From a virus, in IMG/VR virus record IMGVR_UViG_3300009093_000036, positions 1 through 64,000 of that record: a DNA stretch of 64,000 bases; one strand, written 5' to 3'. The notes under the pieces are model-generated. The model searched no databases. It saw nothing but the letters and a program-made list of their open reading frames with translations, and was not told where the DNA came from. Within the stretch, counting starts at the first letter, position 1. Each line of letters starts with the position of its first letter. Below, in pieces: positions 23,311 to 44,241 of the stretch. The position numbers and the translations under genes are program-made.

Positions 23311-26300
23311 CGCAGGCCTCCAGGAGCGATGCGCTTGATGGCGAGGTCGTCGCCGATGAAGCGTTGCGTGCGGCTGGTCTGAACGTAGTCGCGAACGATC
23401 GCGACGCGCACGTTCCGATCGACGTCGTGGTAGACGACGATCATCACCGGAGCGTTGCGGCCGCTCGGCGACTCGGGATCGAGGCTGTAGATGCTGGTCG
23501 CACCACGCGCCGTCATGACTCGCGACAGGTCGATGACTTCGAGCTGCTCGTTGGCCTCGACCGTCTCCAGAGCAGCGTTGAGGGCAGCCCGCATCGCCGT
23601 CTCGGTGTCTCCGCCGGCGTAGCGCCAGGAGAGATTCACGTAGTGCGGCAGCAGGTGCCGAACAAGGATCTCTTCGTTCACGACGCGGTGAAAGTCGGAG
23701 TCGCAGAAGCTCTGCACGTCGTCGACGAGCTGGCTCTGGTCGTAGCTGACCTGAACGTTCTGACGGCTGAGCTGCACGTACTCCGAGGGGCTGTCGGACG
23801 AACCGACGAGGAGAATGGTCCGGCTGATCCCTGCGAACAGGCGCTCCGCACGGCTGTACGAGAGCGTGTTGTTGTTCACGTAGAGCCGGTAGCCGTCCGA
23901 CACCACACCCGTGGCGTCCATGACGAGCGAGGACGGGGCGTTGTTCCGGTCGCCCGGAGCCAACGACAACATCTCGACGTCCACGTAGTAGAGGCCGGTC
24001 TCGTCCTGGTTGTTGTTCATCTCGGTCGAGCTGATGCGCTGCAACGCTCGGCGGATGCGGTAGCTGGTATCGGAGACCGCCGTCGAGCTTCCGAAGGGCG
24101 TGTCGACCGAGAGGGTGAGCACTGTGGGCTCGACCCCGTTGATGATGTACGTCCCGGCACGAGGATGTGCCGAGCTTCGCGGAGCGCCGTTGAGGAACAG
24201 CGTGTCCGGAGAGAAGATCGTGCTGTCCCCGCGGAAGGTGATGAGCGACGAGCTCTGAAAGACGAGGTAGCCCGAGCCGTCGATCACTGCGACGTCTTCA
24301 CCGACCTGCGTGTTGATGTAGTCGACGAGGTCGCTGCGCGTCAGCGCGATCGGGAAGGCGATGGTGATCCACGGGTTCTCATCGAGCCGCAGGATCAAGT
24401 TCTTGCCGACGATCGCCGAGATCGTCCCGGGAGACGGAAGAGGCGAGGTCGACTTGATGGGGCGGTAGAGGACGTCGAGATAGTCGCCCTCTTCGACCCC
24501 GAGGGCCTGGAAGTTCACGGTCGTGTCCTGGAACGCCGTCGTCAGCGAGCCCGAGGATGTGGTCCCGTTGTCGGGGAGGGTGGTGAGCGGCGGGGGCGGC
24601 TGGATGACCCGATCGTTCTCGGGGTCGGGTCGATAGAGCAGGGTGTCCGTGCCCACCAGCACAGAGAACTGCGTCGTGAGGTAGCGGAACTCCGCCGACG
24701 TGGGGGCGAGGAAGTAGACCCGCGCCGAGCCCACCGAGGGGCGACCGACGCGGATCCGAACGCCGACTTCCGGAAGAAGAACTTGCACCTGGTGCAGAGG
24801 CAGCGAGTAATCCTCGTCCGTGGGGCCAGGCCCGACGAGTGCGGAGAGGTAGCCCGTGTCGTCGTGCCCTCGAAGGACTCGTGTCGTGCCTCGGTTGTTG
24901 CCGTCGACGAACTCGACGAGGTCGCCCTGACGCGGGTTGAACGTGGGGAGGCCGATGTCCGCGTTCGTCGCACCACGCCCACTCGTCGGGAACCCGAGCA
25001 AAGAGTTGGCGGTGCCACTCGTGCCGATGATCACGAACTCGGGGCAGTAGATGCCGACGTACGTGCTGCCGTTGTAGTTCAGCACGGTCGCACGCACCTG
25101 GCGCTCCACGAGCTCGGGCGTGGTGTTGATGATCGTGGCGATGGCAGACGGCGTCTGGACTCCGGAGAGGTTCAGCGTGTACGTGCCCGAAGGAGTCAGC
25201 GGCTTCGACGAAGGGCCTGCGAAGACCTTCGAGGGCTTGCGGAAGTTGAAGATGAGGGTGGCTCCACCTCCGAAGTTCACGCTCGTGACGATCGCTCCCG
25301 TCACCAGACCGAGCGATAGCGGGAAGCCCTCGAACTCGACACCGGAACCCTCGTTCTGGAAGCCACGAGTGATGATCGCGACCGGGTCACGGTACGGGAT
25401 CTTCACTCCGTTCGGAGCCCCACCGCTGTCGAGGAGGTCGAGAGCGGTGATGCGAACCACCGGCGTGAGCACGTTTCCGCTCGGTCGGAAGATCGTGTAG
25501 CTCAGGTTCGACAGCGTCCGGATGGGGACCGGGGAGACCTGAAGGGAGACGGCGCCGACGACCTGAACGGTGAAGTCTCCACCGGCGTCATCGGCGTCGA
25601 CTCGAACGATGTCGTTCTGCTGAACGTTCGCATCGATGAAGTTCGTCGACGAGAAGGTCGTGATCAGGTTGTTGCCCGCCACCATCACGAGGTCGGACCC
25701 CTGAAGCTTGATGTCCTTCGTCTCGGTCAGCTCGATGTTGATCTCGTCGACGATCTTCCAGAGAAGATTCGCCACGACACCCGTCATCGCGACGGGAACC
25801 CGGATCTGGAGCGTGGAGCCCGAGACCACGCTGTCCCGGATGTCGTAGCTCCCGACATCGACACCTTCGTCGAGGACGATGCTGAAGCTGCCATCCGAGA
25901 TGAGGGCCTGTAGAGCCGCAGCTCCGCCAGGCGGATCGTTGATGATGATCCATTCGAGCGTCGACGGAGAGCCGAGAGGAACGCCGGTCTGTGCGTTCGA
26001 GCCGCGAGCGATGGGCAGCTCATCGGAGATGCCATCGATCGCGACCGTCTGAGCCACCACTTCGCCGGCGAGGTAGAGGTCGGTCTTGCCTCCGATGTGG
26101 ACCTCATCGGACTTGATGATGAGCTGCCCGTTCGGCGTATCGGGAAGGGTGATGCCCCCGGGGATGTCGGAGATCGTCAGCTCACGCTTGCGGATCATCC
26201 AGTTCACGTTGAGCGGGAACGAGGGGAACTCGTAGTTGAGCAGCAAGTCGGTGTCGGAAATGACCTCCAGCACCTGCGCATCCACCAGCACGGGACCGGA

Positions 26301-36019: not shown

Positions 36020-36703
36020 TCAGGCCTTATACGCCTGCATTGCGTCGCTCAGACTGCGGCGCGGATTCATCGGGTCACTGCTGGCCGAGCGGGTCACGCC
36101 CGACTTCGCTGCGATCGGCGTGTTGCCGACCCGCTGCGACTTGTTCGAGCTGCCACGTAGCACGCCGAGCGTAGGCGCAGAAGGCACCGTAACCTTCGGG
36201 GTACCCGGCCCCGAAGGAGGACCTCCGAAGAGGCTGCTCAGCTTGTTCTCGGCCAAGTAGCTGTGGATGGCCTTGCGGGCGTGATGGAGCTCGATGCCTT
36301 CCTTCGCCGCGGCGAGCACGCCTCCACCGAGACCCGAGGTCAGGGCCTTGGCGGCGAGGTCTCCGCCGGTCTGCTGTGCGAGCTCCTTGGTGCCGCCGGC
36401 GAGTCGCGAAGAGAGGCCACCCTTGGCGTTCACGAAGCCCTTGGTGAAACGACCTGCGGTGTCGATCGCCGGCGCCGCAACGGAGGCGAGGCCAGCGGTC
36501 TGCCCGATGATCTTCCAGGGCTTCGGCTTCTGGAGCTTCGCTGCGGCCTGCTCGACTTCGTGTTCGTCGACCGACAGCTTCTGGACCTCGTCGACGAAGG
36601 CCGCCATCTGGGCTTCCTTCATCAGCGTCTGGACGTTCGTGGGGATGGAGCCCTTCCGGGACTTCAGCCGCTTGTCGTCGATGTCGAGGCCGTGCTGTTC
36701 CAC
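36020..36703 (-). CDS. Hypothetical virion-cluster protein, possible amber readthrough extension
   Basis: 227 residues from a GTG at 36703 that lacks a ribosome site. An in-frame ATG at residue 33 has AAGGAAG at good spacing and would give MAAFVDEVQKLSVDEHE. The frame is identical to that of the upstream 1182-residue gene, separated only by TAG and three codons. The middle is Gly/Ala-rich (SRLAGGTKELAQQTGG), the tail Ser/Pro-rich. It may exist both alone and as a readthrough fusion. Function unknown. Confidence 0.55.
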   Translation of the reverse strand: MEQHGLDIDDKRLKSRKGSIPTNVQTLMKEAQMAAFVDEVQKLSVDEHEVEQAAAKLQKPKPWKIIGQTAGLASVAAPAIDTAGRFTKGFVNAKGGLSSRLAGGTKELAQQTGGDLAAKALTSGLGGGVLAAAKEGIELHHARKAIHSYLAENKLSSLFGGPPSGPGTPKVTVPSAPTLGVLRGSSNKSQRVGNTPIAAKSGVTRSASSDPMNPRRSLSDAMQAYKA

Positions 36704-36712
36704 CCCACAAGA

Positions 36713-39700
36713 CTATCCGAGGATGCCCCGCGTAGCCAAGACAGCTTGCACGTAGAGGAACACCGACAGGCGCTTCTCTTTCCGGGTGTCGAGACGGGCT
36801 GCCCGAGCAGTGTCCCGAGACGAGCGCTGGGCCGCCGCCGGATCGTCGGTTTCATTCGCATCCGTGGTCGTTAGGCCCAAGATGGTGTCGACACGATCGC
36901 CCTCAACGTTCGTCGTGAGCTGACGAAGGTCGTCGAAGTCTCCGAAGGCGCGAGAGTGGAAGCCCTCAACGCCTCGGGTGACAGACCCATCGTCGTCGAT
37001 CTCCAAGTTCGCGGTCCCGAACATGTCGACCATCGAAGCAATGGGACGCCACGTGTACGACTTCAAGAAGTCGTCGACGTCGAAGCGATTGCGGCGGATC
37101 ATCGAGTAGCCGTCGACCAGAGACGAGACCGCCTCCTCGATCGTTCCTCGTGCCGAGATCTCCGACAGCGTCGCCGGCGCTCCGATCTCAGAGGGTGTTC
37201 CAGCGGGGCCCGTGATCTCCGACGGATTGCTGTCGAGGGTCTCCGGAGGCTGCTCGGGCAGCGTGACCGGGGTGCTTGCTCCCAAAGTGACCGGAGAGTC
37301 GGGAGTCACCGAGCTCGCCCCAGAGGGATCACCACCGTCAGCCGATCGAGTCGACCGTCCTGTGGGATCGACGATCACGGTGGGGTCGACGATGCTGCCG
37401 GTTCCGAAGAAGTACGAGTAGAGGGACCCGATGTTCTGGCTGCGGTAGTTCTCGCCGTACCACGGCGGGAACGTGAGGTCCTCCGCCGGCAGATCGACGG
37501 TCGTGCGCTGATAGACGCCCAGCGTCTCAGTGATCTGGTATGCGCGGAACGTCACCGAGACCTCGCGCAACGCCGCATCGTCGCCGGCGTTGCCGGTACC
37601 TGAAGTTGCAACGAAGGACGACTGCGTGTCGCCCACGCTTCCAGCAAGAGCTGCGACCTCGGGAACCGACGATGCAGGCACCGCTGTGCCGACGACGACG
37701 CGAGTTCCTCGAATGCGCCCGGCACCTCCTCCAGGAACGAAGAGAGGCAGCGTCGTGCTTGATGTGTAGCGCTGCGAGCCTGTGGCGGAGGTAGAACGAC
37801 GACCTCGAACTGGACGCACCCGCTCGGAGCGAGCGTACTGATCGGTGACGTCCGTGACCGCTGTGATCTCCCCACCACGGGGTCCCGTAGTTCCAGTTGC
37901 AGGGGTATCCAGCATCGCCACGACGCTGCGCACCGAGGTGTTGCGTGTCCGCCGATAGCGACGAGGAGCTGCACGGTCATCGCCGAGGAACTCGGTCCTC
38001 TCATCCGTGACGCGGCCGTACATCATCTGGATCATGGTCTGGCCGCCGGTCTCGGCCGAGATGCTGTGCGTGATGGATGCCGGAGTCCCCAGGTAGTGAC
38101 TGTTCGGCTGCTGTGCCGTGAGGGCCTGCACGAGGTCTGCCGTGCGCTCGTCCGCCATCTCGCGCTGACGATTCTGCTCCTCCGCCGGCAAGTCAGATTG
38201 GACACCCACACCTTCGCCCTGCGATGCAGCTTCGGCGATCCGACGTGCGATCTCCTGGTTGACCTCCGTATCCGCGGAGTTGATGTCGTCGGCCTTGTAC
38301 TTGTCGATGACGAGCGCCGGGAAGCCGAGCACGACGAAGGGGTTGAACTTGCCCTGCACCTGGAGCTGCCGAGAGCGGAAGCGGTACTGGAAGAAGATGT
38401 GGTTCGCAGCAAGCTGAGCGTAGCCGACTCGCACACCGTCGATCATCACACTGCCACCACGCAGTGCATGCAAGTTCAAGTCGCTCATGCGCTCGAACTT
38501 CGGGATGATGCCCGTGTAGAGCTCGTGGTCCATGAGGTCCCGGATGAACCACGCCGGTGCATCTGCGAGGTCAGGAGGCTCGACTCCAGTACGACCGCGA
38601 CCGATGCTGGCCCCCGACCGCGATCCCAAGATCCTCGATGGCGCCATGTAGTAGCCATCGAACAAGAAGTCGGAGCCGAAGAACGCCGACGACGTGCGGA
38701 GCATGAGCCGCGAGACCTCGTCCATGAAGGTCCGGCCGTAGCTGAAGCTGCTGTAGAGCTCGGGGAAGAGAACGTTGCAACGTGGAGGAGCAACCATCCA
38801 GACGTCCGGCCGGTAGATCTGCGTGATGAGACGTGCCGGAGGATCGGGCTGCCGGTTGCCGGTCGCGACACGGCGCTGAAGCTGCGCGTTGACGATCGTC
38901 TCCATGTCGGCTGCGATCTGATCGCAGTACGAGGTGACCTGCTGCCCTTCAGAAGAGTCCGGAGCTCCGAAGGTGTTGTGAGAGGAGGGCCTTCGCGTGA
39001 GCTGTTCGATGCGCTGGAAGCGGACTGCGTTGACCACCAAGATCTGATGGACCTCCAAGTCACCCACGAACCGAGAGCGCTGGCTCACGGCAAGACGACG
39101 AGCGACACCAGCGGCCGTTCCACAGAGCGAGGCCAAGCGCGGAAGTTCAACTTGAAGGCCTCCGTTCTCCGAAGATAGACGGCTTGCCTCATCGGGCGTC
39201 GTCGACCGTGACTGACGGTCCTTCAGGTCGAGAGCTCGCTGCTTCAAGCGACGAGCTGCATTCACGACCGGCGTGTACGAGTCATTCGTCGTGATCGACA
39301 CCGTCTCGTACTGCGGTCGGTTCGGGTCGACCAGCGCCGGGATGTAGTGCGGCGACGTGATCGGGATGACCTCGTGGAAGATGTAGCGCTGAAGGGCGCT
39401 CAGGACGGCTCGAATGGAGACCTGCCGACCAAGACCTGAAAGAGCTCGGCGGAACAAGCTCCCGAAGCCGTTCGCCGACATCAGGCGGACCTCGTTCTGC
39501 TGCTCGAACGGATTCGCTCCGAGCATCTGCGTGATCTTCAGCCGGAGCTCCGCGATGCTGAAGAAGTCGTTCACGCCTCGGATGGCTCGGGTCCCGAAGT
39601 TCACACCTCCGATGGCTTCGATGATGTGGGTGATCGCTCCGAGCAGCGTGCCTCGCAGGTTCGGGTAGTTGCGAGGTGCTGTGTTCATCAGCCCGACGAT

Positions 39701-40261
39701 GATGTCGCCGTTGCCCTCCAAGAAGGAGTTGAAGACGGTCGTGGCGGCTCCAGTGAACGCAGCGCTGATGCCGCCGCCGTCGAGAGAGAAGCCCTGCACC
39801 TGGTACTGGAACGCGTAGTCCCAGTACATCGACCAGTCCATGCACTGGAGCACGATGCTCCGTGAGCTCCCGGTCTTGTCGACGGTGAAGCCGACGAGTT
39901 CGCCTCCGAAGAGGAGACGGTAGTTCTCGTTCTCCAGATCGGTGTCTTCCTGGGCGTCGGTCTGCTCCAGCCTCTCGGGCGGGATGATGCCGTCGAGGTC
40001 GGGATCACGGTCCTGGTTCTGGATGGCGATGTTGTCGCCGGCGACCCATGCCCGATCCGATGCAGGAGCTCCGCGATAGAAGTCGTAGAAGAAGAGATGG
40101 ACGAGCGTGCGAGGGCGAAGCTGAAGAGCGAGGTCGTTCGCCGGGATCTGAATCGAGCACACCGCGGGCTGGTTGGGCTGCGACTGCACCACCGCCGAGA
40201 TCACGGGAACCTCCACCCCTTCCAGGAAAAGGCGGATGTGGAGCTTCTGGGCGATCGTCAT
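36713..40261 (-). CDS. Large tail/baseplate protein (hub-like)
   Basis: 1182 residues. N-terminus (LHIRLFLEGVEVPVISAVVQSQPNQPAVCSIQIP) and LFGGELVGFTVDKTGSSRSIVLQCMDWS resemble baseplate hub/gpD-type domains that form the tube-end barrel. A helical central part is followed by a Ser/Thr/Pro/Gly-rich disordered stretch (~870-1030) and a C-terminal domain. Ends in TAG (36,713-36,715) in frame with the next gene. The start at 40,261 is divergent from the plus-strand gene at 40,345. Confidence 0.6.
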   Translation of the reverse strand: MTIAQKLHIRLFLEGVEVPVISAVVQSQPNQPAVCSIQIPANDLALQLRPRTLVHLFFYDFYRGAPASDRAWVAGDNIAIQNQDRDPDLDGIIPPERLEQTDAQEDTDLENENYRLLFGGELVGFTVDKTGSSRSIVLQCMDWSMYWDYAFQYQVQGFSLDGGGISAAFTGAATTVFNSFLEGNGDIIVGLMNTAPRNYPNLRGTLLGAITHIIEAIGGVNFGTRAIRGVNDFFSIAELRLKITQMLGANPFEQQNEVRLMSANGFGSLFRRALSGLGRQVSIRAVLSALQRYIFHEVIPITSPHYIPALVDPNRPQYETVSITTNDSYTPVVNAARRLKQRALDLKDRQSRSTTPDEASRLSSENGGLQVELPRLASLCGTAAGVARRLAVSQRSRFVGDLEVHQILVVNAVRFQRIEQLTRRPSSHNTFGAPDSSEGQQVTSYCDQIAADMETIVNAQLQRRVATGNRQPDPPARLITQIYRPDVWMVAPPRCNVLFPELYSSFSYGRTFMDEVSRLMLRTSSAFFGSDFLFDGYYMAPSRILGSRSGASIGRGRTGVEPPDLADAPAWFIRDLMDHELYTGIIPKFERMSDLNLHALRGGSVMIDGVRVGYAQLAANHIFFQYRFRSRQLQVQGKFNPFVVLGFPALVIDKYKADDINSADTEVNQEIARRIAEAASQGEGVGVQSDLPAEEQNRQREMADERTADLVQALTAQQPNSHYLGTPASITHSISAETGGQTMIQMMYGRVTDERTEFLGDDRAAPRRYRRTRNTSVRSVVAMLDTPATGTTGPRGGEITAVTDVTDQYARSERVRPVRGRRSTSATGSQRYTSSTTLPLFVPGGGAGRIRGTRVVVGTAVPASSVPEVAALAGSVGDTQSSFVATSGTGNAGDDAALREVSVTFRAYQITETLGVYQRTTVDLPAEDLTFPPWYGENYRSQNIGSLYSYFFGTGSIVDPTVIVDPTGRSTRSADGGDPSGASSVTPDSPVTLGASTPVTLPEQPPETLDSNPSEITGPAGTPSEIGAPATLSEISARGTIEEAVSSLVDGYSMIRRNRFDVDDFLKSYTWRPIASMVDMFGTANLEIDDDGSVTRGVEGFHSRAFGDFDDLRQLTTNVEGDRVDTILGLTTTDANETDDPAAAQRSSRDTARAARLDTRKEKRLSVFLYVQAVLATRGILG

Positions 40262-40866: not shown

Positions 40867-42093
40867 TTACAGGTTCAGGCCCGGGACGCCGGCGGCGAGA
40901 TTGAGGGCTCCATCCGCCTGTCGAATGCCGAAGCTTCCGAAGAGCTGAATGCCGGCGAAGGCGGCTCGACCCAGCAACAGGTAGTTGGCACTTGGACGAC
41001 CGACGTTGACCCCTAGCTTCGCGAGCTGGCCACGGGCCTGGTTGTCGAGCTCCTCGGGGCTGTTCAGACGAAGGAGCTCCTGGACGCGGTTGAGCTCCTC
41101 CTGGTCGTACTGCGGCTGTGTGGTGTCGTGGACGAACGCTGTGTACTCGTCCTTCTGCTGCCAGATCGGGACACGCTCACCGTTCGACCCAGGAGCGGAC
41201 GGGAAGCTCGCCTGGTTCTCGATCGGCGGGACGTAGAGCTGGTTGCCGATGCCCTTGTTCGGGAAGGCGAGGCTGCGGCCGTAGAGCGTGTTCTTCGCCT
41301 GCTCGATCGCACGCTGGATCGTGAACGTCGCATCGTTCGCGAACCGCTGAGCGTCGGCGAGGAAGCCGGTGAGGCTGTCCTGATTGCCCAAGGACGACTG
41401 GACATCCGCGGTCGCTGCCGGGTCGTCCGGAGGAACGGTCGTGGGCGTCGGTCCGGGCGTCCGATCCGCCATCTCGTCGTTGTAGATGGGCGAGAAGATG
41501 CTGCCGACGTCGCCGATGATCGAGTAGTTCGTGCAGAACACCTGGAACGTCAGCGGGAGCTTGTACGGGTCCTCGACTGTCTGCACCGCCTGCGCCTGGA
41601 GCATGTAGCCCTCGATGACGACGTCATCGAAGTACAAGTACATCCGGGCGTTGCGTTCGAGCAGCTTCGTTCCTCGCAACGTGTCGTTGTAGTTCTTCCA
41701 CCACTCCGACTTCCAGTTGAAGTTCCGTGCGTTCAGGATGACAGCGTTGAAGGTGTAGATGCGGGGGCGCTCTCCGAAGAAGAAGATGTAGTCCTCTCCG
41801 AAGGTCTCCACGATCTGCTGCTTCTCGACGCGCTGCTCCTGAACGGACTGAAGGATGAAGTTCGAGTACTCGATGCTCTGACCGATGCCGTTGACATCAG
41901 TGGCGCTGCTGCTGTCGACGAGCGGGATGGGGCGACCGACGGCGTCGATGACCTTGATCGTGGCGTAGGTGTCCTTCTTCACCTCGATGCCACGCGTCGG
42001 TCGCCGCACGTTCTGTGAGGTACGGGTCTCCTGCGCGGCGTCGTTGAAGACGTCCTCGAAGGGAGAGGTCGTAACGCTGATGAAGACCGCCAC
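40867..42093 (-). CDS. Tail structural protein
   Basis: 408 residues. FGEDYIFFFGERPRIYTFNAVILNARNFNWKSEWWKNYNDTLRG then RMYLYFDDVVIEGYMLQAQAVQ is a compact beta domain resembling tail-tube/baseplate junction proteins in large myoviruses. C-terminal 200 residues are helical and Gln-rich. Divergent from the NADAR gene, with its stop (TAA) at a shared terminator. Family assignment is tentative. Confidence 0.55.
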   Translation of the reverse strand: MAVFISVTTSPFEDVFNDAAQETRTSQNVRRPTRGIEVKKDTYATIKVIDAVGRPIPLVDSSSATDVNGIGQSIEYSNFILQSVQEQRVEKQQIVETFGEDYIFFFGERPRIYTFNAVILNARNFNWKSEWWKNYNDTLRGTKLLERNARMYLYFDDVVIEGYMLQAQAVQTVEDPYKLPLTFQVFCTNYSIIGDVGSIFSPIYNDEMADRTPGPTPTTVPPDDPAATADVQSSLGNQDSLTGFLADAQRFANDATFTIQRAIEQAKNTLYGRSLAFPNKGIGNQLYVPPIENQASFPSAPGSNGERVPIWQQKDEYTAFVHDTTQPQYDQEELNRVQELLRLNSPEELDNQARGQLAKLGVNVGRPSANYLLLGRAAFAGIQLFGSFGIRQADGALNLAAGVPGLNL

Positions 42094-42101
42094 GCCGGAA
42101 T

Positions 42102-42109
42102 CCTATCAG
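42102..42109 (+). promoter_or_regulatory. Candidate late promoter element CCTATCAG
   Basis: CCTATCAG followed by GAAGCTGAGGAAGC, 18 bp before the ATG at 42,128, in a 34-bp divergent gap. The GAGGA within the downstream half doubles as the ribosome site. Confidence 0.5.
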
Positions 42110-42127
42110 GAAGCTGAGGAAGCATCC

Positions 42128-43123
42128 ATGCCGCGCGCAGAACGACCGGAGCGAGCCTTCAAGGCTTGGTCCGACGTCGAAGTCGACAAGCTCAGCTTCT
42201 GGTGGGGCGTCTTCTCCATCCAGACGATCGCAAAGCGCCTCGGCAGAACCCCGGCCGGCGTATCAGAGAAAGCTCGCAAGACGAAGTTGGGGGCCTTCGC
42301 CCAAGACACCATCTCGATGAGAGAGTTCGTACGCTTGAGCGGGTACGAGGACTCTCGCATCCTCGCCAGCGCAGAGGCCATCGGTATCAAGCTCCAGCGC
42401 ATCGGCGTCGGGAACCCGAAGCGTCCGAAGGCGAAGAGGGCCTACGCAATCACCGAGGAGCAGCAAGAGAAGCTGCTCGCACACTTCGCAGAGCATCCGA
42501 ACACCTTCTATCCGAACAAGCCCGGCTCCGGTAAGACGACCCAGGGCGTCTGGGGCATCGGCCGGAAGCCTCCGCAGTGCCTCGACTGCAAGAGAAACGA
42601 CAGACCTCACTACTCCAAGGGCTTGTGCGATGGCTGCTACCAGAAGGTCATGCGCAGCAACCGAAAGAAGAACATGAACAACCCGCCGATTACCCACTTC
42701 CAGGGGAGCTACCGCTTCCTGTCGAACTTCTTTCCCGCCACCATCACGTTCGGAGGACTGAAGTACTACAGCGTCGAGCACGCCTTCCAAGCCGCCAAGA
42801 CGTTGGACCCTGTGAAGAGGGCCCCGCTCACCTTCGCACATGGCACCGAGCTGAGCTGGAATCCCGGCAAGGCGAAGGTGTACGGGCGCAGTCTCGAACT
42901 TCGTCCTGATTGGGAGGACGTCAAGTTCAAGGTGATGGGGCAGCTCCTTCGCGAGAAGTTCACGGAGCACGCCGATCTCGGGAAGAAGCTGATCGCCACT
43001 GGAACCCGCGAGCTCATCGAAGGCAACTACTGGGGCGACCGCATCTGGGGTGTCTGCGACGGCGAGGGGGAGAACCGCCTCGGCAAGTTGCTGATGGAGA
43101 TTCGAGAGGAACTACAGAAATGA
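42128..43123 (+). CDS. HTH - zinc finger - NADAR fusion protein
   Basis: 331 residues from the ATG at 42128. Residues ~10-60 form a SANT/HTH-like helix bundle (FSIQTIAKRLGRTPAGVSEKARK). A zinc knuckle has C151, C154, C167, C170. Residues 188-329 are a NADAR/YbiA domain: FLSNFFP at 197-203, EHAFQAAK at 217-224, NYWGDRIWGV near 300-309 and N..LGKLLMEIR. NADAR enzymes remove ADP-ribose, including from guanine in DNA. An internal ATG (residue 183) could give the NADAR alone. The fusion suggests DNA-targeted ADP-ribose reversal, possibly against DarT-type defence (inference). Confidence 0.8.
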   Translation: MPRAERPERAFKAWSDVEVDKLSFWWGVFSIQTIAKRLGRTPAGVSEKARKTKLGAFAQDTISMREFVRLSGYEDSRILASAEAIGIKLQRIGVGNPKRPKAKRAYAITEEQQEKLLAHFAEHPNTFYPNKPGSGKTTQGVWGIGRKPPQCLDCKRNDRPHYSKGLCDGCYQKVMRSNRKKNMNNPPITHFQGSYRFLSNFFPATITFGGLKYYSVEHAFQAAKTLDPVKRAPLTFAHGTELSWNPGKAKVYGRSLELRPDWEDVKFKVMGQLLREKFTEHADLGKKLIATGTRELIEGNYWGDRIWGVCDGEGENRLGKLLMEIREELQK

Positions 43124-43668
43124 CTACGCCCGAAGAGAAGATCAAGAAGCTCGACTTCACGAAGGTAACGCGGGACGCCGACAAGACGCGCACCAGGATT
43201 CTCATCAAGCCCCGCTACGGGATGCAGAGCTTGGAGATCGTGTGTGGTCGCACCAACCTGAACCGCAACCGAGACCGTACGCCTTCATACGAACGGCTCA
43301 CGGCCCGGGCTTCATACGGTGTCATCGACTTCGAGCACGACAGCGCGTACATCTTCCAGATCCCGCTCGTCGGTGTAGCACTCGACTTTGTCGAAAACTC
43401 GACCGTCTACTACAGCGGGATCCTGTTGGGACGCGACCCCGAAGACCTCCGCATCTCGTTGGACACCGACTACGATCCGACGAAGCTGAAGGGCGCCTAC
43501 AAGTGCAACGGGAAGGAGTGTCGCTCAGGCAAGTCGCACATGATCGTTCCCGAAGGGTACTGGGCGGGCCCGGAGATGAAGGTCCAGACCCTCTACTTGC
43601 AGCTCGTTGGTGCCGAGGTTTCCGTGATCTTGAGCACGCCAAGCAAGGAGGACCCTGACCACGGCTGA
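43120..43668 (+). CDS. Hypothetical protein after the NADAR gene
   Basis: 182 residues, ATG overlapping the preceding TGA. Beta-rich (RILIKPRYGMQSLEIVCGRTN, AYIFQIPLVGVALDFV) with two Cys (KCNGKECRSGK) in a loop. Ends 8 bp before the tRNA gene. No family recognised; translational coupling suggests it works with the NADAR protein. Confidence 0.58.
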   Translation: MTTPEEKIKKLDFTKVTRDADKTRTRILIKPRYGMQSLEIVCGRTNLNRNRDRTPSYERLTARASYGVIDFEHDSAYIFQIPLVGVALDFVENSTVYYSGILLGRDPEDLRISLDTDYDPTKLKGAYKCNGKECRSGKSHMIVPEGYWAGPEMKVQTLYLQLVGAEVSVILSTPSKEDPDHG

Positions 43669-43675
43669 GACGCCT

Positions 43676-43746
43676 GCCCCCGTAGCTGAGCGGGAAAGCA
43701 GCGGATTCTAAATCCGTGGTCGTGGGTTCGATCCCCACCGGGGGCG
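43676..43746 (+). tRNA. tRNA with CUA anticodon (amber suppressor)
   Basis: 71 nt. Acceptor GCCCCCG/CGGGGGC; U8 A9; D-stem GCTG/AAGC with A14, GG18-19 and A21; anticodon stem GCGGA/TCCGT; loop TTCTAAA giving U33, anticodon C-U-A at 43,708-43,710 and A37; 4-nt variable loop GGTC; T-arm GTGGG-TTCGATC-CCCAC; discriminator G. CCA is not encoded. It should read UAG. G73, G10 and U35 are compatible with glutamine charging, but identity is not established. Confidence 0.85.
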
Positions 43747-43768
43747 AGCAGAAGCAATCACGTTTCTT

Positions 43769-43776
43769 CCTATAAA
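43769..43776 (+). promoter_or_regulatory. Candidate late promoter element CCTATAAA with leader hairpin
   Basis: CCTATAAA is followed by ACAGATAGAAG in the 69-bp gap after the tRNA. GAAGAG (43,784-43,789) pairs with CTCTTC (43,795-43,800) in the leader, before CCGGAG and the ATG at 43,816. It is one of two A-variants of the CCTATCAG element. Confidence 0.5.
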
Positions 43777-43815
43777 ACAGATAGAAGAGACAACCTCTTC
43801 CGGAGAAACACGAAC

Positions 43816-44241
43816 ATGAACCAGAACATTCAGAAGGTCCTTCAGCTCGGCGCCCTCATCGATCGCAACAACGAGACGGTTCGCCGACTTCAAGAAGAGA
43901 ACAAGCAACACATGGAGGTCATCGAGTCCCTCGTGGTCCACAAGAGGGACAACCAGCGTCCCTCGAAGAAGATCGAGGACCGTCTCGTCAAGCAGATCAA
44001 GCGCGCCTTCTTCCGTTCGGAGGAGGAGTACGAGAAGACGATCGTCCAAGCGCTCAAGGGCGGGCCTCCCCTCTGCCGTGCGGACTTGGTGCGAAAGACT
44101 CACATCTCGATGAAGACGCTGGCCAAGCTGATGCCACGGCTGGCCGAACGAAACGTGGTGAGGCCCGTGTCAGCCCTCAAGAAGCTGAGTGACGGGCGTG
44201 AGATCAAGGTGCAGGGATGGTCCGCCGGAAAAGCGGCCTGA
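43816..44241 (+). CDS. Coiled-coil winged-helix-like protein
   Basis: 141 residues. Residues ~1-50 form a coiled coil (GALIDRNNETVRRLQEENKQHMEVIESL). The rest contains PPLCRADLVRKTHISMKTLAKLMPRLAERNVVRPVSALKK, a winged-helix pattern. It may bind DNA or RNA as a dimer. It overlaps the methyltransferase-like gene by 25 bp and follows the suppressor tRNA. Confidence 0.6.
   Translation: MNQNIQKVLQLGALIDRNNETVRRLQEENKQHMEVIESLVVHKRDNQRPSKKIEDRLVKQIKRAFFRSEEEYEKTIVQALKGGPPLCRADLVRKTHISMKTLAKLMPRLAERNVVRPVSALKKLSDGREIKVQGWSAGKAA

Follow-up and report, generated by a model that had tools for sequence, protein, structure and literature searches.

A lone tRNA gene with a CUA anticodon in a large tailed phage that retains UAG as a stop codon

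The tRNA gene and its neighbourhood

The stretch of DNA analysed here, hereafter the window, comprises 64,000 nucleotides (bases 1-64000) of a phage record of 195,355 bp (G000); the remainder of the record was read in overlapping stretches. ARAGORN calls a single tRNA in the window, at 43675-43747 on the + strand, with anticodon CTA. The Rfam model RF00005 matches this gene over its full length (43676-43746; 66.7 bits, E=2.5e-12, gathering threshold 29). The acceptor, D, anticodon and T stems contain 7, 3, 5 and 5 bp, respectively, the first pair of the anticodon stem being G-U. Two bases (TA) separate the acceptor and D stems, the D loop contains GG, the variable loop is short, the acceptor end pair is G1-C72, and the discriminator is G73. 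In the anticodon loop, U33 precedes CUA at positions 34-36, and A37 follows, as in amber suppressors. In structure it is an ordinary bacterial tRNA. An earlier note on this DNA had described a complete cloverleaf with U33, A37 and the loop TTCTAAA placing CUA at 34-36; both programs and, decisively, the comparison with a related phage (see below) bear this description out, and ARAGORN gives no other anticodon. When the tRNA alone is folded with RNAfold, the z-score is -1.5, unremarkable for one tRNA. No further tRNAs were found in the 195-kb record, making the CUA tRNA the sole one.

ARAGORN labels the gene 'tRNA-Pyl', which is merely its name for the CTA anticodon. We reject this identity, because the anticodon stem has 5 bp rather than 6, two bases rather than one precede the D stem, and GG is present in the D loop. 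A PylRS-type synthetase was sought in G000 and not found, which also counts against tRNA-Pyl.

The tRNA sits in an accessory block of the + strand that includes a NADAR-domain protein (Table 1). This protein, a D5-like/NADAR fusion, is a candidate counter-defence gene. A motif, CCTATAAAACAGATAGAAGAGA, separates the tRNA from the gene downstream; in the related phage G001 it is found upstream of two genes, at 23926 (-) and 163084 (+), and it is probably a phage promoter.

Table 1. Features of the window discussed in the text
Feature	Position	Strand	Remarks
TAG stop of 1182-aa gene	36713..36715	-	9 nt before next gene, 36020-36703, which shares its frame; both TAG and frame kept in G001 and G005
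D5-like regulator (PHROG 323) fused to C-terminal NADAR domain (PF08719)	42080..43123	+	Upstream of tRNA; syntenic in G001; no match among G005 genes
182-aa protein	43120..43668	+	No functional assignment; stops just before tRNA
tRNA gene, anticodon CUA	43676..43746	+	Discriminator G at 43747; CCA not encoded; ARAGORN and Rfam
Anticodon loop TTCTAAA	43707..43713	+	CTA at 43709-43711; identical in G001
Motif CCTATAAAACAGATAGAAGAGA	43769..43790	+	Between tRNA and next gene; conserved in G001
141-aa protein	43816..44241	+	Downstream of tRNA; weak profile matches only; syntenic in G001

Related phages with and without the CUA tRNA

The closest relative, G001 (IMGVR_UViG_3300049792_000048; 195,774 bp), is colinear with G000, albeit reversed and circularly permuted, and about 84% identical at the nucleotide level. 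It has exactly one tRNA, which also carries CUA and is syntenic with that of G000. The bodies of the two tRNAs have diverged, with all 20 of 20 stem pairs kept, four of them by double-sided, compensatory changes. Because every pair is kept in this way and the anticodon loop is unchanged, the tRNA is evidently maintained. The flanking DNA shows 78-83% identity between the two phages. These same observations bear on whether the gene is a neutrally drifting tRNA, its anticodon mutated, with no present function. A reading of this kind would accommodate a tRNA that has no proven target and is absent from the next relative, but we consider it very unlikely, given four compensatory changes and an intact anticodon loop in a region whose flanks have diverged so far.

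That next relative, G005 (191,681 bp), has a terminase 77% identical at the protein level. Its single tRNA is a tRNA-Asn, the CUA tRNA is absent, and no genes matching the block around the CUA tRNA occur among its called genes. Hence, in the G000/G001 lineage, the suppressor is an accessory gene that is maintained once present. The sequences do not support an origin of the CUA tRNA from the G005 tRNA-Asn, as 42 of 72 positions agree.

It is also conceivable that the tRNA serves counter-defence or host take-over rather than acting on phage genes, either as a decoy that engages tRNA-cutting nucleases of the host or by causing readthrough of host genes that end in UAG. The accessory block, unmatched in G005 and including the NADAR-domain protein, would fit such a role, since NADAR proteins of phages can counteract defences based on ADP-ribosylation. 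Nevertheless, a CUA tRNA is unable to replace any sense-decoding tRNA, and a nuclease or defence context has not been demonstrated. We regard this explanation as unlikely.

UAG as a stop codon

All gene counts come from a codon-usage gene caller written for this analysis rather than from a published program. G000 has a GC content of 62.5% and is a tailed phage, as judged from its hallmark genes for a DnaB-like helicase, DNA polymerase, topoisomerase II and terminase. Its 262 called genes give a coding density of 0.95 under the standard code and end in TGA (217), TAG (32) or TAA (12). Five of the TAG-ended genes lie in the window, so the "about six" of the earlier note was about right. Across the record, TAA/TTA is very rare, with 139 occurrences (both strands) versus 1365 for TAG/CTA and 6026 for TGA/TCA. 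Stops are largely conserved between G000 and G001 (TAG/TAG, 18 genes; TGA/TGA, 168; a few swaps each way), and TAG terminates the terminase gene of either phage. In G005, which has no suppressor, 36 of 273 genes end in TAG, a share about equal to that in G000. UAG is not reassigned, and TAG is a working stop codon in G000.

G000 also encodes a one-piece tmRNA (129510-129899, - strand), with the tag ANDSSYAQPVLANAA; the tmRNA is kept in G001 and G005 (tag ANDSSYAPAALAA). Its core matches Myxococcota, Planctomycetota and Myxococcus phage Mx1, indicating no single host group. Mx1 likewise has a tmRNA, unannotated in its record.

In code-15 gut phages (crAss-like and others), UAG is reassigned to glutamine, with proteomic support (PMC9523058), and a CUA tRNA is a typical possession of these phages (PMC9523058, PMC11210395). 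These phages share a phage-encoded CUA tRNA with G000, but UAG is reassigned there and remains a stop here. Many in-frame TAGs inside conserved genes and a low density under code 11, both expected of code-15 phages, are not seen in G000. As for the auxiliary genes that are frequent, though not universal, in such phages, for example those for a phage RF2 or a synthetase, release factors (PF00472) were not found in G000, G001 or G005, and a search of G000 confined to two synthetase types, PylRS/PheRS (PF01409) and Gln/Glu (PF00749), was likewise negative. Full or late-gene recoding of UAG is thus scarcely tenable: the anticodon alone would suit it, but TAG ends 32 genes, the terminase in both relatives included, and one gene in 262 is interrupted. 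The earlier note's reading of the anticodon as that of a suppressor holds. It had also doubted full reassignment, and rightly so, as the standard code holds throughout and the TAG stops have stayed stops in G001. The likeness it drew to gut phages with UAG recoded in their late genes is not borne out, since no late-gene recoding is seen; a single conserved gene in G000 is interrupted by TAG.

Charging, candidate targets and the role of the tRNA

Which amino acid might the tRNA insert? Glutaminyl-tRNA synthetase favours U35 with G73, and E. coli tRNA-Trp altered to CUA inserts glutamine. The G73 and U35 of the phage tRNA make glutamine the best candidate, but the acceptor pair G1-C72 is not Gln-like. 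The E. coli amber suppressors supE and Su+7 resemble the phage tRNA in their CUA anticodon, G73 and short variable loop. They are mutated host tRNAs, however, whereas the gene in G000 is phage-encoded and its charging presumed. Similarity searches gave inconsistent indications of a parent tRNA and were set aside for this purpose: the best matches in bacterial genomes are to tRNA-Met and tRNA-Arg, and a strong phage match is to a tRNA-Lys. The longest match, at 72%, is to Stenotrophomonas phage DLP_3, and there is no clear match among the tRNAs of Mx1. The codons found opposite interrupting TAGs in the related genome, CAG (Gln) and AAG, do not help either; both are one step from TAG, so the residue cannot be deduced from them.

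These TAGs come from a gene-based alignment of the called genes of G000 and G001. At G000:111757, an in-frame TAG interrupts a conserved gene of 117 codons, the second half of which has a weak KOW-like match; G001 has CAG at this site, and in a third phage, G012, the gene is uninterrupted there. At G001:171986, an in-frame TAG interrupts a gene of 62 codons in which G000 has AAG. In both cases similar sequence is present on either side of the TAG, and each genome has one such gene. No equivalent two-sided interruptions by TGA or TAA were found between G000 and G001. From the codon usage, TAG is the expected outcome of about 70% of random nonsense mutations, and hence the fact that two of two interruptions are TAG is no evidence for suppression. 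At G000:111757, an ATG a few codons past the TAG could restart translation. As suppressor targets, the two genes are suggestive only.

A second set of candidates consists of TAG-ended genes that read, in frame and free of stops, into a close neighbour on the same strand. In G000 this is true of 10 of 18 TAG-ended genes with such a neighbour, versus 19 of 75 other genes (p=0.02). The corresponding figures are 12 of 21 in G001 (p=0.07) and 6 of 19 in G005, where there is no enrichment. Two pairs, 135309/134928 and 107619/107301, keep both TAG and frame in G000 and G001 and have TGA in G005. These observations raise the possibility that the tRNA serves programmed readthrough, producing fusion proteins from specific gene pairs split by an in-frame UAG. 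Several considerations make this quite unlikely. The p-values are marginal, G000 and G001 do not count as independent cases, the frame or the TAG of several pairs is lost in G001, and most of the downstream genes have a start codon of their own. Moreover, the most clearly conserved pair, 36713/36020, keeps its TAG and frame in G005 as well, and is therefore independent of the tRNA. (In the window this pair spans 36020-40261 and encodes proteins of 1182 and 227 aa, neither with a significant known domain; no clear ribosome-binding site precedes the second gene.)

A further test comes from Stenotrophomonas phages Summit, DLP_5 and DLP_3 (Delepquintavirus), which, like G000, are high-GC tailed phages of standard code with a CUA tRNA. 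Unlike G000, they carry other tRNAs beside it, and their genomes are about 96 kb. Whereas ten TAG-ended genes of G000 continue in frame into their neighbour, none of 20 does so in these three phages, as determined with a coding model, and TAG-interrupted orthologues were not found among them. Enrichment of in-frame junctions is thus not a general companion of CUA tRNAs and may be due to chance. The CUA tRNA of DLP_3 (MT110073.1, 49181-49254) is annotated as tRNA-Glu, while ARAGORN reads its anticodon as CUA. That of DLP_5 lies in the same place but has a different body, which suggests replacement of the tRNA with retention of the anticodon. In sum, the candidate UAG targets amount to one interrupted conserved gene per genome plus the ten in-frame junctions, none of them beyond chance with confidence.

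We favour the view, to which we assign a probability of roughly 60%, that the tRNA is a functional amber suppressor, encoded by a large tailed phage whose code is otherwise the standard one, and gives partial readthrough of UAG. The tRNA would be charged by a host synthetase, glutamine being the best fit, and the charged tRNA would compete with host RF1 at UAG. This competition would yield partial readthrough, with UAG staying a stop overall. Strong suppression would add a long tail to the terminase, so suppression, if the tRNA works, is probably moderate. Such partial suppression would make amber mutations in the phage's own genes tolerable, and a fraction of the products of some 32 UAG-ended genes would be extended at the C-terminus or fused. 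Judged from the sequences, such partial readthrough is plausible, if undemonstrated.

Suppressor tRNAs have been described before in phages that use UAG as a stop, their targets not found, as in Summit and XacN1. Summit has a predicted amber-suppressor tRNA and the standard code, and its authors could identify no target for the tRNA (PMC9022506). Xanthomonas citri jumbo phage XacN1 has two suppressor tRNAs (CUA) per terminal repeat, and in-silico readthrough of its 18 amber stops revealed no targets (PMC5852040). XacN1 has 56 tRNA genes in its terminal repeats, whereas in G000 the suppressor is the only tRNA. What distinguishes the present case is that this lone tRNA is confirmed by a relative to be retained, and that candidate targets can be named. 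Since there are candidate targets and a natural control in G005, which has no suppressor, the role of the suppressor is testable. A pattern search of IMG/VR with one anticodon-arm sequence returned 27 stretches. Reading TAG as open adds little at most of the loci around them, so phages of this kind are probably not rare.

It is doubtful that moderate readthrough of UAG acts as a programmed switch, providing both fusions from UAG-separated gene pairs and a full-length product of the UAG-interrupted gene. If it did, a suppressor tRNA of a non-recoded phage would, to our knowledge, have identified targets for the first time. More generally, if partial suppression is real, phages such as G000 may represent a stage on the way from the standard code to the reassignment of UAG.
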